From assembly GCA_947169975.1 (NCBI GenBank), contig CAMVRT010000001.1:1-64000 (forward strand): DNA of 64,000 nt. The letters run 5' to 3'. Origin of the DNA: an uncultured Oscillospiraceae bacterium. GTDB taxonomy: Bacteria; Bacillota; Clostridia; Oscillospirales; Oscillospiraceae. Made by a program: the position numbers and the translations under genes. The notes below the pieces were generated by a model. It made no database searches. It saw only the letters and a list, made by a program, of their open reading frames with translations, and was not told the DNA's origin. Positions within the stretch are counted from its first letter, which is position 1. The number at the start of each line of letters is the position of its first letter. Shown in pieces: positions 3,869 through 24,945 of the stretch.

Positions 3869-3903
3869 TTCCGCGGAATAAAGGATTTTTATTCCGGAAA
3901 AAC
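3869..3903 (-). terminator. Hairpin between L7Ae-like gene and rpsL (attenuator or processing site)
   Basis: TTTTCCGcGGAATAA-aggatt-TTTATTCCGGAAAA inverted repeat. Confidence 0.4.
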
Positions 3904-3907
3904 CATT

Positions 3908-4153
3908 TTACTCTGCCAGAAGCGCAACGGCAGCAGTACCCACCGAGATCCCGGCGGCACGGCCCAGGGCCTCCATGGTACCGCCGTTCTCCACCGTCAC
4001 GTTCATCTGCTCGCACAGGGCGCGCAGCGGCTCGGTGAGCCAGGGATCGGCATCACAGGCCAGATACACCAGCTTGGCCCGACCGGCATTCAGGGCGCGG
4101 CGGGTCTGCTTGAGGCCGGTCACTTTGTCCTTTGCGGCAAGCCCTTCCAGCAC
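3908..4153 (-). CDS. Ribosomal protein L7Ae/L30e-like (YbxF-type) protein
   Basis: VLEGLAAKDKVTGLKQTRRALNAGRAKLVYLACDADPWLTEPLRALCEQMNV; conserved position upstream of rpsL; GTG start with GGGAGG RBS. Confidence 0.85.
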   Translation of the reverse strand: MLEGLAAKDKVTGLKQTRRALNAGRAKLVYLACDADPWLTEPLRALCEQMNVTVENGGTMEALGRAAGISVGTAAVALLAE

Positions 4154-4522
4154 TGGTGTCCCTCCCTGCCATTGGCATGGCAAAACTCGCGGAACAATAT
4201 CCGCGCAATTTGGAATTATAACATAGGCGCCGTCCATCGTCAAGGTTTTTTGTGCCAAAAATTTGGTGTTCTGACAGGAAAATCGGCGGCAATTCCGTCG
4301 TTTTCTACGAAAGCCAAGCCGCATTACTCATTGTCTTATCCTCGTCGAGCCGGCTCTGTCAAGGACTTCTCCTCAATTTGCAGAATCGGCGTCATCTCCG
4401 TTTGATGTCTTTGCACGGCAGCATCTCCGCGGGCTTTGTGCAACAATGCCAATACATAGGGCTATCTCATTGTGCAAACTGATATTTTTTGTGCAGTTTT
4501 AATAATTTAACGTAAAAAAATA

Positions 4523-4551
4523 TGGATTTTTTATATGTATCGTGCTATGAT
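4523..4551 (+). promoter_or_regulatory. Possible promoter of the protease gene (-10 TATGAT at 4546)
   Basis: AT-rich upstream DNA with TATGAT box; weak -35. Confidence 0.35.
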
Positions 4552-4607
4552 ATTTGCGTTGATGTGCCGCGTTCGAGGCGCAAATCCATGTAAGAGGAGA
4601 TCATGAA

Positions 4608-7600
4608 ATGAAACGAACGTACAAAAAACTCCTTTCATTCCTGCTGGCAGCTCTGATGATCATCAGTCTGCTGCCCACAAGTGTCTTCGCCCAGGGTCTC
4701 TCCCGCATTTCGCGGGATGACGCCGCCCGCAGACATATGCCCACCGGCTATATTCCGGCCAGGATCCATGGTGCCAGCGCGGTTTCCAACGCGTACAAAA
4801 ACGGCGACATGGAGGCCTATTACCGCCTGACCGGAAGATCCGCCACCCGCGACACGCTGCCTTCCACGTATGACAGCCGCAACAGCAATTGGGTCACCTC
4901 TGTCAAGAACCAGAATCCCTACGGCTCCTGCTGGGCCCACGCCGCCGTGGCCAGCGTGGAGAGCTACATGATCAAGAACGGCGTCCCCGTGGGCACCGGC
5001 GCCGCCGCCACCACGAGCCTGAACCTTTCCGAGACCCAGCACTGCTTCTTCAACTACAGCACCGCTTATGACGCCGAGGGCATGACCGACGGCGATAAGT
5101 GCACCCTCACCGGCTCCGACAGCTGTCTGGACGCCGGCGGCAATGGCGAAATGTCCGCCTATACCTTCCAGCACTGGACCGGCGCCGCCAGCGAATCCGT
5201 CTCCGCTCTGGCCTACAGCAAGGCCAGCACGGTGGCCAGCTCCGGTCTGGCCAGCCAGTATGCCTATGGCTCCAACGTCTGCCACGTCCAGAACTCCGTC
5301 TGGATCATGGGCTCCAGCACCGAGGACGTGAAGCGCGCCATCATGGAATACGGCGCCGGCAACATCAGCTACTACGAGACCGGCAACGCCTATACCTACA
5401 TCTGCACCAAGGACACCACCAGCCAGAGCAGCAGCTCCCACAAGTGGGCCAACCACGCCATCACCCTGGTGGGCTGGGACGACAGCATTGCCGCTTCCAA
5501 GTTTAAGCCCAATACCCCCTCCAAGGCCGGCGCCTGGATCTGCAAGAACAGCTGGGGCACCAGCTACTTCAACAGCGGCTACTGCTACATCTCCTACGAA
5601 GACACCACAGTGAACGAGGGCTACATCTTCTTCTATGATGCCGAGCCCATCGACAACTACGCCCACAACTATCAGTACGACGGCTCCTGCAACGTCGTCA
5701 CCTTCGGCAAGGGCTGGAACTCCAGCATCGACACCTGCACCGGCTTTGCCAACAACACCAAGGTCGCCAACGTCTTCACCGCCAAGGGCAGTGAGAGCCT
5801 GAAGGCCATTGCCTTCTGCAGCTGGGACGAGGCATTGACCTACACCGTTGAGATCTACAAGAATCCCACCACCGGCAATCCCTCCTCCGGTACCCTGATG
5901 TCCACCCAAACCGGCACCCTGACCTTCTCCGGCTACTACACCATCCCCCTGGAAACTCCGGTAGCGCTGGCAGCCGGTGACACCTTCTCCGTGGTCATCA
6001 CCCAGAGCGTTCCCGTGGCCGACGACAACGGCTACTACATCCACACCCCCTATGACTCCACCTTCAATGACACCAACGTGGTCTCCTGGGCAAATTGGAC
6101 CCACGTGGATCACGGCAATACCTCTTATTATAAAGAGCCCAACGGCAGCTGGACCGACTGCCCCGATAAGGGCGACTACCGCATCAAGGCCTACACCGAT
6201 GACGTGACCTTCACCGTCACCGCGGTCTCCAACAATACCGCCTACGGTACCGTCACCGTGGACGGCACCAAGATCACCGCCACCCCCAAGACCGGCTACT
6301 ACGTCTCCGGCTATGAGGTGGTCAGCGGTACCGCCACCGCCACCATCAACGGCAACATCATCAACGTGGCTCCCAGCAGTGACTGCACCATCCGCGTCAT
6401 CTTCGCTCCCAAGCCCACCTACACGGTGAACTTCATCTCCACCGGTACCTCTGTGGGCAGCCAGAGCGCTCTGATCTATGACACCATCACCCTGCCTGCC
6501 TCCGTCAGCAACACCCCCGATGGCTGGACCTTCTCCGGCTGGACCACCGCCCAGCTGGCCGAGACCACCGACAAGCCCGAATTCTATGAGCCCGGCTCCA
6601 CCTATACCGTCACCGGCAATACCACGCTGTACGCCCTGTTCACCCGCGTAGAGGGCAGCGACGAGGTGGTTTATGAGCTGCTGGCCGATGCCCCCGCCGA
6701 CTGGGCCGGCAAATACATCATCACCTGCGGCAAGGATTCCAGCATGCTGGTGCTGAAGGGTCTGGAAGGCGACAAGAGCTACGAAACCGCCAGCTACGAA
6801 ACCGCCAAGACCTTCTCCAATACCGGCATGACCCTGGACGGCACCCAGATCAAGAACGCGGATGACAACTACGTGTTCGAGATTGCGCCTGTCAACTCTG
6901 CCTATACCATCAAGAGCGTTGCCACCGGCACCTATGTGGGCAGCTACAACAGCTACCTCTACAGCCGCGCGTCCTATGAATCCAGCTACTGCAACTGGGC
7001 TGTGGAGTATGACTCCTATCAGATCTGCATGAAGGTCAGCAACTCCGCCAGCTCCCGTTATCCCTATCTGGTGAAGGGCTCCAACAGCTACTTCGTTGTC
7101 AATAGTTCCTACACCACCAACAAGACCCAGTTCTGGAAGGAGACCCGCCTGGGCTACACCTACTACAACACCGATCCTGTTTCCGCCCCCGCCCATGAGC
7201 ACAACATGACCCACGTGGCCGCCGTGGCCCCCACCTGCGCCGAGGCCGGCAACATCGAGTACTGGACCTGCGCCGAGTGCGGCAAGTACTTCTCCGACGC
7301 CAATGGCAATAATGAGATCACTCTCGAGAGCACCGTGATCCCCGCCACCGGCAACCACAGCTACGGCGAGTACGTCTCCAACAACGACGGCACCCACAAG
7401 CACGTCTGCTCTGTCTGCGGCGACACCGTCACCGAGGCCTGCACCTATAACGACGTGGTCACCGCCCCCACCGCCACCGAGGGCGGCTACACCACCCACA
7501 CCTGCACCGTCTGCGGCTACTCCTTCGTGGACAGCTACACCGATCCTCTGGGCAACGACTATCTGGTCACCTTCTCCGTGCCCGCCGGCGTGACGGCTCC

Positions 7601-20395: not shown

Positions 20396-20947
20396 CTATA
20401 GATCAAAGGTCTCTTTAATTAACCCTGCTACTTCGTCAGGTTCTTTATCTGAATTGTCAATTCTGAAATAGTTGTTGAAAGTAATCTCGCCTTCATAGCT
20501 AACACACCTGTGGTTTAGATCATCATTGATCAAACGTTGATTTGAAATTTCTTTGTTTCTTTTAGAAGCCTTGTTTTTCAGCCTGTTCTCAGAAACATTT
20601 CTCTTTAGTCTGATCTCTTGCGGAGCTATCAGTTCAACATAATAGAACTCTGTTCCGTATGGCTTAAATATCTCTTTGACATGCTCCAGGTACTCCCATT
20701 CCGAAGGCAGATCAAAATCCATCATCAATGTAAAAATCATCCCATAGTTATCGGAAGCGGCAAAGTTTTTGAAAATAACGTCGCGTATTTCTGAGATGGT
20801 CTTCCCGTCATATCTGCCGAATATCTCGATCACTGGTTCGATAGTCATGTGGTTGTGAAAGAGCCTCAGGTCTGTGATTTTCATCAGTTCCTGGCCAACT
20901 GTCATTTTCCCAACGGCGGCATCACCAATCACAAACACCAGTTTCAT
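20396..20947 (-). CDS. P-loop NTPase / nucleotide kinase-like protein (cassette cargo)
   Basis: MKLVFVIGDAAVGKMTVGQELMKITDLRLFHNHMTIEPVIEIFG; Walker A-like GDAAVGKM. Confidence 0.7.
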   Translation of the reverse strand: MKLVFVIGDAAVGKMTVGQELMKITDLRLFHNHMTIEPVIEIFGRYDGKTISEIRDVIFKNFAASDNYGMIFTLMMDFDLPSEWEYLEHVKEIFKPYGTEFYYVELIAPQEIRLKRNVSENRLKNKASKRNKEISNQRLINDDLNHRCVSYEGEITFNNYFRIDNSDKEPDEVAGLIKETFDL

Positions 20948-20977
20948 AAATCACCTCCACAAAAACGATCTGATATT

Positions 20978-21085
20978 TCATTTCATACTGTTCAGATAAT
21001 CCGCATTCTTTGGTTCGTGGGGCACTGAAATATAATCCTTCTTCTGGTGGTACAAGCAGCATACCGTCTCCACGTTCCTTGGGAC
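20978..21085 (-). pseudogene. RlmD/RumA C-terminal remnant (tail D)
   Basis: Minus frame reads VPRNVETVCCLYHQKKDYISVPHEPKNADYLNSMK*. Confidence 0.7.
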
Positions 21086-21190
21086 AACAGCGTGAATAAA
21101 ACGGCGTCTATTTACGCTGATTGCTCGTCCGCCCTTGTAGAGCAGTTCCCGCTTTCCAAAACGGTCGAGGCAACAGTGTAGATATTGTTG
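21060..21190 (-). repeat. Cassette-boundary core repeat, copy 1
   Basis: ccgtctccacgttccttgggacaaCAGCGTGAATAaaacggcgtcTATTTACGCTGattgctcgtccgcccttgtagagcagttcccgctttccaaaacggtcgaggcaacagtgtagatattgttgcc. Confidence 0.85.
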
Positions 21191-21215
21191 CCAAATCAGT
21201 TCGATCTTGAGAACA

Positions 21216-21623
21216 CTAGATATTCAAGCAATACAAAATGTTCTCTTGCAAATCGGCAAGAAGCGTTGGCAGATTCGTTTCGCCAAGGTTTATCTTAATC
21301 TCTTTTTTATTCTGTTTTCCTGTCCATGTTTTACAGATATTGATTTGCTTCGCACCCGGAAGAGCAGAAAGTTCCGTAATCAGATTACTTAACTCTATAA
21401 TTGTGGGGTCCGTGGGATCATGCTTGCCAACCGGACTGTCACAATCGCAAATCCAATCGGTAATACGAAAGTCATCTTGGACAAATTCTGCAGCGGCTCT
21501 TACCGCACTCTTTATGTCATGCTTTGTGCCAAGCGAGATTTTCAAGCCGTATTTATTCTTGACGTCGACATATTCCGATTCGGAAACGTCTCCGTATAAT
21601 GATCCGTACAAGAAGTAACACAT
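21216..21623 (-). CDS. Hypothetical protein (cassette cargo)
   Basis: MCYFLYGSLYGDVSESEYVDVKNKYGLKISLG...; GGAGG RBS supports start at 21623 rather than the GTG at 21695. Confidence 0.6.
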   Translation of the reverse strand: MCYFLYGSLYGDVSESEYVDVKNKYGLKISLGTKHDIKSAVRAAAEFVQDDFRITDWICDCDSPVGKHDPTDPTIIELSNLITELSALPGAKQINICKTWTGKQNKKEIKINLGETNLPTLLADLQENILYCLNI

Positions 21624-21696
21624 ACTTTTTTCCTCCAATTGTTTCGACGTCACTCGGTTCTTTGCTTTTTCTATCCGATCATTCAATCTGTACACT

Positions 21697-21735
21697 CTAC
21701 TCGGCTCGAGCCATCAATACGACTGATTCCACATG
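21697..21735 (-). pseudogene. RlmD/RumA C-terminal remnant (tail C)
   Basis: Minus frame reads HVESVVLMARAE*. Confidence 0.65.
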
Positions 21736-21847
21736 GTTTGAGACAACAGCGTGAATAAATCGGTGTTAATTTACGCTGATTGCTCGTCCGCCCTTGTGGA
21801 GCAGTTCTGAATCGAAGAACCGATCGAGACAATAGCTTTGATATTAA
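21720..21847 (-). repeat. Cassette-boundary core repeat, copy 2
   Basis: gactgattccacatggtttgagacaaCAGCGTGAATAaatcggtgttaATTTACGCTGattgctcgtccgcccttgtggagcagttc...cgatcgagacaatagctttgatatt. Confidence 0.85.
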
Positions 21848-21858
21848 TCATGACATGA

Positions 21859-22611
21859 TCAAGCTATCTGACCTTTTATCATTTCGACTATTTCATCACG
21901 GTTCAATGGGTTTCTTCTACTGGATATGCGTCTGGGATGATAAGTCCAGAACACAGGGATGCCAAATCCCGTAATTTCAGTAATATCAACGCATCCGTTT
22001 TGATACGATAATCCCGCTTCTTTAAGCGATCCTTCTTTAAGATTCATCGCCGATTCCATAGTAACAGTATAATTCGGACCGGTGATAAAAACAATTGCGT
22101 TTGGTTTTGTGATCTCAACTTCTGTTTGAAATAGCGTTTTATTTAAATCAGGCAGAATACAGTTCAGCTTTATTTCTGTTTCTTCCGTCAATCCCATTGT
22201 TTTTCCTTCAACAAATCTTTGTGCTTTATCAATGTTGTTCCAAGAAGGAACAATATCTTCTTTACTGAATTGTTTGAAAAAACTCCAAAAAGGAGAACTG
22301 TTTCGGCGTCCGAACTGTTCCCTCAGAATTTGATCATTAGAATAACGCAACTGATAGTTCAGGTAATCTATCGCCCATTGTCGAGTATCCTCTATACTCC
22401 AATCAGGCTTATATCCTGACCATCCGCGTGTTTCCTGCCCAACAATCATTATCCTTTTTTCAGAACGAAAATATGTTTCAGAAACACCCAGAAAAAACGG
22501 GTAAGAAATATATGCGTTTGGATTATCCCTTACATATGGATCGAAAACCGTTTGAAACCATATTCTTTGATAAGCGTTTAGTTCTTCATTCACTTTGCTT
22601 TGCTCCCTCAA
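21859..22611 (-). CDS. Hypothetical protein, possibly UDG-superfamily fold (cassette cargo)
   Basis: KRIMIVGQETRGW and PVFWTYHPRR resemble the two active-site loops of UDG-like proteins; 250 aa. Confidence 0.5.
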   Translation of the reverse strand: MREQSKVNEELNAYQRIWFQTVFDPYVRDNPNAYISYPFFLGVSETYFRSEKRIMIVGQETRGWSGYKPDWSIEDTRQWAIDYLNYQLRYSNDQILREQFGRRNSSPFWSFFKQFSKEDIVPSWNNIDKAQRFVEGKTMGLTEETEIKLNCILPDLNKTLFQTEVEITKPNAIVFITGPNYTVTMESAMNLKEGSLKEAGLSYQNGCVDITEITGFGIPVFWTYHPRRISSRRNPLNRDEIVEMIKGQIA

Positions 22612-22636
22612 AAGTGTAAGTCTTCAAAACTAACAA

Positions 22637-22672
22637 TCATCTCGTAATCAACACCGCCGTCTCCACATGCCT
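22637..22672 (-). pseudogene. RlmD/RumA C-terminal remnant (tail B)
   Basis: Minus frame reads VPRHVETAVLITR*. Confidence 0.65.
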
Positions 22673-22785
22673 TGGGACAATAGCGTGAATAAAACGGTGT
22701 CTATTTACGCTGATTGCTCGTCCTCCCTCGTAGAGCAGTTCCCGCTCTCTGAAACGGTCGAGTGGGCAGCGTAAATATTGCTTTT
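22655..22785 (-). repeat. Cassette-boundary core repeat, copy 3
   Basis: gccgtctccacatgccttgggacaaTAGCGTGAATAaaacggtgtcTATTTACGCTGattgctcgtcctccctcgtagagcagttcccgctctctgaaacggtcgagtgggCAGCGTAAATAttg. Confidence 0.85.
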
Positions 22786-22789
22786 GAGT

Positions 22790-23575
22790 CTAGCCGCGAA
22801 CTTTCAGAATATCGAGGGTATGATTGGATGCTCCGATCAAATCCTGCCGCTCACATGTTGCAAAGTGATATTCCATCCATTTCGCGAAAGTATCCTGATC
22901 CATTTCGTCAATAAACCCGCTCAAATAATGAGCTGCTCCGTCTGTTGCAACCAGTTTGATTCTATCCAGAGGAAACTTGGAATTCAAAAGCGAAATATCT
23001 TCTGTTCTGACCAACTCAAATATTTCTTTCGGCTCGCTCTTACAGTGCCAATCATCCGTCAGCATATTCATTTGTGCGACCTCATTAAGATGACCGCCCA
23101 AAAACACGTACTGAATGATTGTGGGTTCATTCATACAATAAGCGACCAGAATATATCCACCCGGCTTTGTAACACGTACCGCTTCCGACATCGCCTGTAT
23201 CTTATCTTTTAATGTGTAAAGGTGGTACATGGGACCTAACAGCATTGTCAGATCAAATGATTGATCACGGAATGACGAAAGATCCAGCGCATCGCCTTGA
23301 ACCGCAGTAATCGGTTCGGTGCCATCCAATTTTGACCTTAATACATCCAGATTGTGCTGCACCAATTCAACTGCCGTCACAGAGTATCCTTCCTTTGCAA
23401 GTGCCACACTGTACCTGCCGGTGCCTGCGCCGACTTCCAGAATGCTTGGGGAGGCAAAATGGGAAATGCATTCATGGATGTATTTCATCGTGGTCAGATA
23501 CTCGACCTGTCCATGCTGTGACAAAAGTCGTTTCTCTTCATCTCTGCTGTTGTAGTATTCTTCAAGCAAATTCAT
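22790..23575 (-). CDS. Class I SAM-dependent methyltransferase (cassette cargo)
   Basis: ILEVGAGTGRYSVALAKEGYSVTAVELVQHNLD; ATGA overlap with rlmD stop. Confidence 0.85.
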   Translation of the reverse strand: MNLLEEYYNSRDEEKRLLSQHGQVEYLTTMKYIHECISHFASPSILEVGAGTGRYSVALAKEGYSVTAVELVQHNLDVLRSKLDGTEPITAVQGDALDLSSFRDQSFDLTMLLGPMYHLYTLKDKIQAMSEAVRVTKPGGYILVAYCMNEPTIIQYVFLGGHLNEVAQMNMLTDDWHCKSEPKEIFELVRTEDISLLNSKFPLDRIKLVATDGAAHYLSGFIDEMDQDTFAKWMEYHFATCERQDLIGASNHTLDILKVRG

Positions 23576-24945
23576 ACCGAACCTCCGTCCATCATATTTT
23601 CCGGCGTCATTCTCGTCATCAATACAACCGTCTCCACGTTTGCCGTGCGGGGGAACAGGTCCACCGCCGCGGCGCGGGCGGCACGGTAGCCATATTCGGC
23701 GAACCGCTTCACATCCCGCCCCAGCGTAGCCGGGTCACAGGAAACGTACACGATGCGCTGCGGCTGCATAGAGGCGGCCGCCTCCACCACCTCGGGGGCC
23801 AGGCCCTTCCGGGGCGGGTCCACACAGATGACGTCAGGACGCAGGCTCTTCGCGGCGAAATCCGCCGCCACCGCCGCCGCGTCGCCGCAGAAAAAGCGGA
23901 CGTTTTCGATGCCGTTGCGCTTGGCGTTCTCCTTGGCGTCTTCAATGGCCTCAGGCACGATCTCCGCGCCGATGACCTCGCGGGCCTTGCGCGCCATCAC
24001 CTGGGTGATGGTGCCGGCGCCGCAGTAGAGATCCAGCACCGTCTCTTTTCCGGTGAGACCGGCGAACTCCACCGCTTTCTCATAGAGCCGCTCCGCCTGG
24101 TCACGATTGACCTGATAGAAAGACGGCACGGACAGCCGGAAGGTAAGGCCGCACAGGGTATCGGTAATGGTATCCGCTCCCCAGAGGGTGCGGTATCTGT
24201 CGCCCAGAATGGCGTTGCCGGGCCGGGTATTGACCCCCAACACCACGCCCACGGCTTTGGGCACGTGTTTTTGAATTATGTCAACCAGCTCCGCCTCGTG
24301 GGGAAGTCTGTCGCCGTTCACCAGCAGACAGATCAGGCTCTCCCCTGCCGAGTTGGTGCGCACGTACAGATGGCGCAGCAGACCCCGGCCTGTCCCCTCA
24401 TCGAAGCAGGACACGCCGTACTCTTTGATATACTGCCGCACCGTCTCCGCCGCCGCGTCGGCCTGGGACTTCTGGATGAGGCAATGCGCCACGTCCGTTA
24501 CCTGATGCGTGCGGGCGCGATAAAAGCCCACACTGCCGTCGGCGGCAATGGGGTACTGGCTTTTATTGCGGTATCGTTCCGGATCAGCCGCGCCCAGGAT
24601 CTCCTCCACGGTCACGTCGCTGCCGCCCAGCCGGGTCAAGGCGTCCTGCACCCGCTGCCGCTTGGCCCACAGCTCCTCTTCATAGTCCATGTGGCGGAAG
24701 TCGCAGCCGCCGCATTTGCCGTAGTATGGGCAGTCCGGTTCCACCCGGTGGGGTGATGGTTCCCTGATGGCGGTCACCTTGCCGAAGGCGGTATTTTTCA
24801 GCACCTTCAGGATCAGCACGTCGCACGCCTCGCCACGGACGGCGTTGTGGACAAACACCACCTGCCCGTCGATCCGGGCAATGCCCAATCCCTCGGAGGA
24901 GTACCCCTCGATGACGGCGGAATAGACTTGATTCTTCTTCAGCAT
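23572..24945 (-). CDS. rlmD: 23S rRNA (uracil-C5)-methyltransferase RlmD/RumA family
   Basis: TRAM-like N-terminus, VLDLYCGAGTITQVMARKA, VDPPRKGLAPEVV, RIVYVSCDPATLGRD, C-terminal VETVVLMTRM. Confidence 0.9.
   Translation of the reverse strand: MLKKNQVYSAVIEGYSSEGLGIARIDGQVVFVHNAVRGEACDVLILKVLKNTAFGKVTAIREPSPHRVEPDCPYYGKCGGCDFRHMDYEEELWAKRQRVQDALTRLGGSDVTVEEILGAADPERYRNKSQYPIAADGSVGFYRARTHQVTDVAHCLIQKSQADAAAETVRQYIKEYGVSCFDEGTGRGLLRHLYVRTNSAGESLICLLVNGDRLPHEAELVDIIQKHVPKAVGVVLGVNTRPGNAILGDRYRTLWGADTITDTLCGLTFRLSVPSFYQVNRDQAERLYEKAVEFAGLTGKETVLDLYCGAGTITQVMARKAREVIGAEIVPEAIEDAKENAKRNGIENVRFFCGDAAAVAADFAAKSLRPDVICVDPPRKGLAPEVVEAAASMQPQRIVYVSCDPATLGRDVKRFAEYGYRAARAAAVDLFPRTANVETVVLMTRMTPENMMDGGSV

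Follow-up and report, generated by a model that had tools for sequence, protein, structure and literature searches.

A tandem array of single-gene cassettes with a conserved 125-bp 3' element behind rlmD, and a possible serine-recombinase route for its assembly in gut Clostridia

The array behind rlmD and its repeated element

The window that we analyzed, a 64,000-nucleotide stretch of DNA from an uncultured Oscillospiraceae bacterium, contains the 23S rRNA methyltransferase gene rlmD and, downstream of it, three consecutive cassettes, each made up of a single ORF with one copy of a repeated element as its 3' end (Table 1). rlmD is the integration platform of these cassettes, and the gene, the cassettes and the elements all lie on the minus strand, which is the direction of rlmD transcription. 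The last codons of rlmD encode NVE followed by TVVLMTRMTPENMMDGGSV, and the latter residues are supplied by cassette 1. The ORF of cassette 1 encodes a class I SAM methyltransferase; the 250-aa product of cassette 2 had no Pfam, NCBIfam or PDB match and the 159-aa product of cassette 3 had no Pfam or NCBIfam match. Past the last element the sequence continues in frame with VETVCCLYHQKKDYISVPHEPKNADYLNSMK and a stop codon, which we read as a displaced RlmD tail, that is, the probable right side of an earlier integration site. The ORF that follows this tail (20396-20947) resembles a P-loop kinase (MKLVFVIGDAAVGKMTVG) with no Pfam match and may be part of an older insertion. The GC content of the array is 0.42, against 0.64 for rlmD. 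Promoter-like sites in the array were not above chance, and no integrase gene was found beside rlmD in the window.

Table 1. Positions of rlmD, the cassettes and the element copies in the window
Feature	Position	Strand	Content or basis
rlmD (23S rRNA U1939 C5-methyltransferase)	23572-24945	-	TIGR00479, 410 bits
Exchange point GA (Glu codon), rlmD/cassette 1, inferred	23633-23634	-	same-right/different-left and same-left/different-right pairs
Cassette 1, about 971 bp	22664-23634	-	RlmD replacement tail, ORF 22790-23575, element copy 3
Cassette 2, about 934 bp	21730-22663	-	tail ETAVLITR and stop, 250-aa ORF 21859-22611, element copy 2
Cassette 3, about 659 bp	21071-21729	-	tail ESVVLMARAE and stop, 159-aa ORF 21216-21695, element copy 1
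Displaced tail past last element, extent approximate	20970-21069	-	in frame, VETVCCLYHQKKDYISVPHEPKNADYLNSMK and stop
Element copy 3	22657-22780	-	arms 22681-22691, 22702-22712, 22767-22777; invariant block 22713-22741; GA 22662-22663
Element copy 2	21723-21846	-	GA 21728-21729
Element copy 1	21064-21187	-	arms 21088-21098, 21109-21119, 21174-21184; GA 21069-21070

A preliminary description of this DNA had claimed a repeat of about 125 bp in three copies with a near-invariant block, and both claims are confirmed by our analysis. The copies form one direct-repeat family, far above chance: over 124 bp, copy 2 shows 76% and copy 3 shows 88% identity to copy 1. There are three matches to the block, GAACTGCTCNACNAGGGNGGACGAGCAAT, all free of mismatches (0.00 expected from dinucleotide shuffles). 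The same description gave the element three arms; the layout stands, as does the perfect inverse in copy 3, while the arm sequences of the individual copies need small corrections. Copies 1 and 2 have CAGCGTGAATA as arm 1 and copy 3 has TAGCGTGAATA, arm 2 of copy 2 is AATTTACGCTG, and arm 3 reads CAGTGTAGATA in copy 1 and TAGCTTTGATA in copy 2; its perfect form, CAGCGTAAATA, is present only in copy 3, as the inverse of arm 2. Along the minus strand the order is arm 3, the invariant block, arm 2, a spacing of 10 bp (in the window copies), arm 1, TTGTCCCAAGGCAYGTN or a close variant and, finally, the GA of a Glu codon, with arm 1 ending 17 bp inside the inferred crossover. The element exists in two subtypes that have the last ~90 bp in common and differ in the upstream part.

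Format, cargo and spread of the cassettes

We delimited 47 complete cassettes, which range from 539 to 3946 bp (median 806) and have either rlmD (25) or another element (22) as left neighbor. The main ORF is co-oriented with the array in every one of them, and the element sits at the 3' end, as expected of the cassette boundary that it had been proposed to be. Each cassette starts with a short substitute for the RlmD C-terminal tail plus a stop codon, in frame with HVE (for example VETVVLMTKK or VESVVLMSRAGS, each followed by a stop), and insertion therefore rebuilds the RlmD C-terminus. GNAT acetyltransferases (PF00583) account for 21 of 87 cassette-associated ORFs, the remaining cargo including methyltransferases, beta-lactamase-fold proteins, 23S intervening-sequence proteins and immunity-like proteins; no recombinase is present among the 25 top Pfam families listed for these 87 ORFs. 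PF05635 (23S rRNA-intervening-sequence protein) is matched by three cassette ORFs, and two match WapI-like immunity proteins. At one locus (L092, around 900-1020) a cassette start is fused almost directly to an element and the unit looks ORF-less. Both the RlmD tail and the gene downstream of it are different in almost every species of the genus. The hypervariability of the tail is evident across L191-L219, where there are also long shared tails (LSKLSEAKHHISVQVDMDEL...), and this variability appears to mark rlmD as a general integration hotspot.

With a sequence-only model the element was detected in 24 of 401 genomes of the family and 17 of its 106 genera; within the genus it was found in 6 of 32 genomes at E <= 0.01, the weakest match possibly being due to chance. 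A 23-base core pattern matched in 70 stretches of GTDB genomes; most of these come from MAGs of rumen and gut Clostridia, and some carry the labels Lachnospiraceae, Erysipelotrichaceae or Blautia. Viral contigs gave no matches for the element with three patterns, and it was absent from the plasmid and phage collections.

Individual cassettes recur at 90-98% DNA identity behind rlmD, behind an element or behind the 3' end of a gene for an rlmD-targeting large serine recombinase (LSR), and this identity spans the first base of the cassette to the last within about 5-15 bp. Where available, the RlmD proteins of hosts with a common cassette are only about 40-47% identical. A GNAT cassette was found in six genomes with 90-95% identity along its entire length of ~670 bp, and its left neighbors there are rlmD, other cassette DNA and an LSR gene. 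Cassette 3 of the window recurs at full length with 79% identity in L057 and L062 and with 70% in L064, and most of its length is found at 82% in L078. These comparisons support well the idea that the cassettes are mobile between species. The preliminary description had named copies located independently of cassettes as an argument against its own proposal; copies away from rlmD do exist but are few. One of them, on contig 3 of the home genome, is degenerate, and cassettes are present in G002:C21 and G484:C2, a pattern that secondary sites or relics would be expected to give. The degenerate relic (G000:C3:133104-133155, in L029), which is distant from rlmD, follows two flavodoxin-like reductase ORFs.

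The exchange point and the recombinases of rlmD

In most pairs of loci that have the same right side and different left sides (rlmD, element or LSR gene), the difference extends to the base just before GA. This was the case when rlmD was compared with an LSR gene (L079 vs L164) and when an element was compared with an LSR gene (L098 vs L161 and L077 vs L104), the right sides being 98% alike over the compared part and the difference reaching base -1 in all three pairs. In pairs with the same left side and a different right side, divergence can start at the first base after GA (+2), and GA itself never differs in the compared pairs. The same-left pairs often differ at -4 and -1 as well; we read these as free left-side positions because the same-right pairs show -1 to be left-specific. 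Judging by these junctions, exchange takes place at two bases, the GA of the Glu codon in HVE/TVV, and a 2-bp overlap of this kind would fit the serine recombinases. The earlier proposal of a site-specific recombination site beside the VETV codons is upheld, with the junctions mapping to GA. Its second part, a tyrosine-recombinase core formed by the paired arms, is not supported, as the exchange at GA falls 17 bp outside arm 1.

It could still be argued that the cassettes are moved by a tyrosine recombinase, with the inverted CAGCGTRNATA/TATTCACGCTR arms as arm-type or core-type sites of an integrase and the core near HVETV. The arms are inverted at a fixed spacing of 9-10 bp and are conserved in sequence without covariation, a multi-arm site of about 125 bp is more reminiscent of a lambda-type att than of a serine site, and the home genome has tyrosine integrases, although on other contigs than the array. 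Nevertheless, the overlaps of tyrosine recombinases need about 6-8 matching bp, whereas the exchange here maps to 2 bp that lie outside the arms and the adjoining base varies freely on either side, and LSRs at rlmD use the same GA. We therefore regard this scenario as unlikely, albeit less so than the other rival readings.

LSRs related to that of one genome (G002) are present in 28 of the 401 family genomes, and most of the intact ones have rlmD-type tails. In 18 of the genera in the family, most LSRs terminate in the same xE[TC]V..L codons as are found at the cassette junctions, and the LSR genes of streptococcal rumA elements have the same kind of end (PMC4701971). We assembled the attP of G002 from the 3' end of its LSR gene (L127, G002:C14, 10515-12188, minus strand) and the rlmD-element junction in L196. 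The attP of this widespread rlmD-targeting clade is GAGTTTGGACAA-N13-GA-N13-TTGTCCAAACTC, with the P half in the 3' end of the LSR gene. A perfect 12-bp dyad occupies its positions 15-26 to either side of GA, close to the location of the zinc domain on the attP half-sites of serine integrases (PMC3783163). Cassettes and rlmD-specific LSRs thus use one and the same GA of this Glu codon. Four LSR genes (in G002, G411, G190 and L104) are directly followed by a cassette. The 12-bp dyad of the LSR attP is absent at the cassette junctions, and co-occurrence of rlmD-type LSRs and cassettes, seen in 3 of 401 genomes with about 1.7 expected, is not above chance. PF07508 had no match in 15 of 49 cassette genomes, although these are MAGs, and none of the LSRs in a set inspected from cassette genomes is of the rlmD type. 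In L250 (G470:C1, about 3900-6920) at least two serine-recombinase matches precede an element copy by about 4-7 kb, and the C-terminus visible there is not of the rlmD type.

We also considered that the element might be the 3' end of an LSR coding gene. This was not supported, as the search for LSR genes turned up none whose end consists of element sequence. In 59% of copies the VETV frame stays open for 35 codons or more, compared with 7-8% in other frames, but we do not take this as evidence of coding since the copies are homologous, hence not independent, and the wobble positions left of CAY are invariant.

The arrays could alternatively be debris, that is, decayed cis-mobilizable remnants of rlmD-targeting ICEs/IMEs that kept one end and were spread by homologous recombination. 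Accretion in tandem and CIMEs have been described for sites of this type (PMC5704250), LSR elements use the site as well and relics do exist away from rlmD. What this scenario does not account for is that the units are compact (mostly 0.5-1.5 kb), single-gene and equipped with one conserved end, that they recur whole with sharp ends, and that they do so behind three kinds of left neighbor in distant hosts; we consider it improbable.

With regard to the arms, the covariation analysis suggested in the preliminary description was carried out on 26 type-A and 54 type-B distinct copies and revealed no covariation in any candidate helix tested; RNAalifold covariance was near zero and compensatory changes were not in excess in the same copies. 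The commonest arm 1/arm 2 pairing also holds an A-C mismatch. Because about 80 aligned copies show no covariation, the arms look like protein sites in double-stranded DNA rather than an attC fold, and this is how they are best read from the alignments; of the two outcomes foreseen for the analysis it is the double-strand arms that are favored, and the attC-type single-strand fold is not borne out. An integron-like system, in which the element would fold like attC and an IntI-type enzyme would recombine the folded strand, is accordingly very improbable: folding is possible for individual copies (z about -1.3 to -2.5) and arrays of co-oriented single-gene cassettes do resemble integrons, but the helices are without covariance or excess compensatory change and the exchange point falls outside the paired arms. 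Least probable of all is an ordinary intergenic repeat (REP-type, terminator or structured RNA) flanking genes by chance, which would suit the inverted arms and the position between genes, as the element has no terminator-like sites inside it, no Rfam match and no covariation, its 3' edge is at the HVE codon and transfer occurs cassette by cassette; the sharp-ended cassettes that different hosts share contradict this reading.

A possible capture system and its known relatives

As a whole, the data are in our opinion best explained, with rather better than even confidence, by non-autonomous cassettes that carry a recombination half-site and exchange GA at rlmD. The sequences themselves show the element, its arrays, the junctions, the swapped RlmD tails and the horizontal transfer; the enzyme, the role of the arms and the transcription of the cassettes are proposals. 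According to this working model, single-gene cassettes would insert at one spot, the HVE/TV codons near the rlmD 3' end, and the 125-bp element would serve as the 3' terminal half-site with accessory protein-binding arms. A circle would carry the element, GA and the cassette start in this order, and GA exchange with the rlmD site would place the cassette directly behind rlmD, ahead of the DNA that had followed the gene before; rlmD would remain intact because the cassette start gives it a new in-frame tail and stop. The asymmetry of GA would force the cassette gene into the same direction as rlmD and thereby allow read-through expression, presumably from the rlmD promoter, and repeated insertion beside rlmD would generate tandem co-directional arrays. 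It is likely that a serine recombinase acts in trans on the cassettes, although none was found for them. A plausible candidate is an LSR that targets rlmD and is provided by ICEs/IMEs with exchange at this GA. The CAGCGTRNATA arms may be double-strand binding sites for the recombinase or for a directionality factor; the ~100 bp of conserved sequence beyond the 25-bp half-site is unusual for a serine-integrase site.

There is precedent for much of this among large elements, where the target gene, tail swapping and tandem accretion are already known. The streptococcal ICEs/IMEs that use one serine integrase and reside in rumA (= rlmD) have the same target, the same C-terminal tail swap and a site at the LSR 3' end (PMC4701971). 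Those elements are much larger and carry their own recombinase, whereas the rlmD cassettes are mostly 0.5-3 kb, have none among their listed gene families and possess a long conserved 3' element that is absent from LSR gene ends. Insertion at the same rlmD site with a tail swap and, by sequence comparison, a 2-bp central exchange are common to the cassettes and LSR elements; quasi-symmetric half-sites around the dinucleotide, in the form of the dyad, are found in the LSR attP and not at the cassette junctions, and no LSR is among the Pfam families listed for the cassette ORFs, which would make the cassettes at most non-autonomous satellites. CIMEs are likewise non-autonomous DNA between att sites that accretes in tandem (PMC5704250); they are decayed islands, while the rlmD cassettes have a standardized single-gene format. 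A further parallel is as follows. In SCC elements, large serine recombinases (ccr) also target an rRNA-methylase gene at its 3' end, in this case rlmH; tandem insertions occur and some members are devoid of a recombinase gene, but these elements are much larger and have no conserved 125-bp terminus of this kind. In the open-access literature we found no description of cassettes with a conserved 125-bp 3' end, which is weak evidence of novelty.

Integrons are the textbook route by which bacteria collect single genes and, to our knowledge, are not a known feature of gut Clostridia. Their cassettes, too, are compact, mostly single-ORF and co-oriented, carry a site of roughly 60-130 bp at the 3' end, lie in tandem behind a fixed platform and are rich in acetyltransferases; the rlmD cassettes are likewise tandem, co-oriented (47 of 47; median 806 bp), single-gene and, in the window array, apparently promoterless. 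They differ from integrons in that no IntI was found (neither the complete cassettes nor the region beside rlmD in the window contain an integrase gene), in lacking attC-type covariation and in the 2-bp exchange, as well as in having the end of a housekeeping gene as platform and a replacement tail in each cassette. If the model is correct, rumen and gut Clostridia would have an integron-like collecting system with a different chemistry and a different platform, and GA exchange at HVE/TV of rlmD is a concrete prediction by which it can be tested. We give about even chances to the broader proposition that this is a second natural system for gene-cassette capture, independent of integrons, in which serine recombinases would act in trans on double-stranded DNA to collect single-gene cassettes across gut Clostridia, at an rRNA-methylase gene whose C-terminus every cassette rebuilds.
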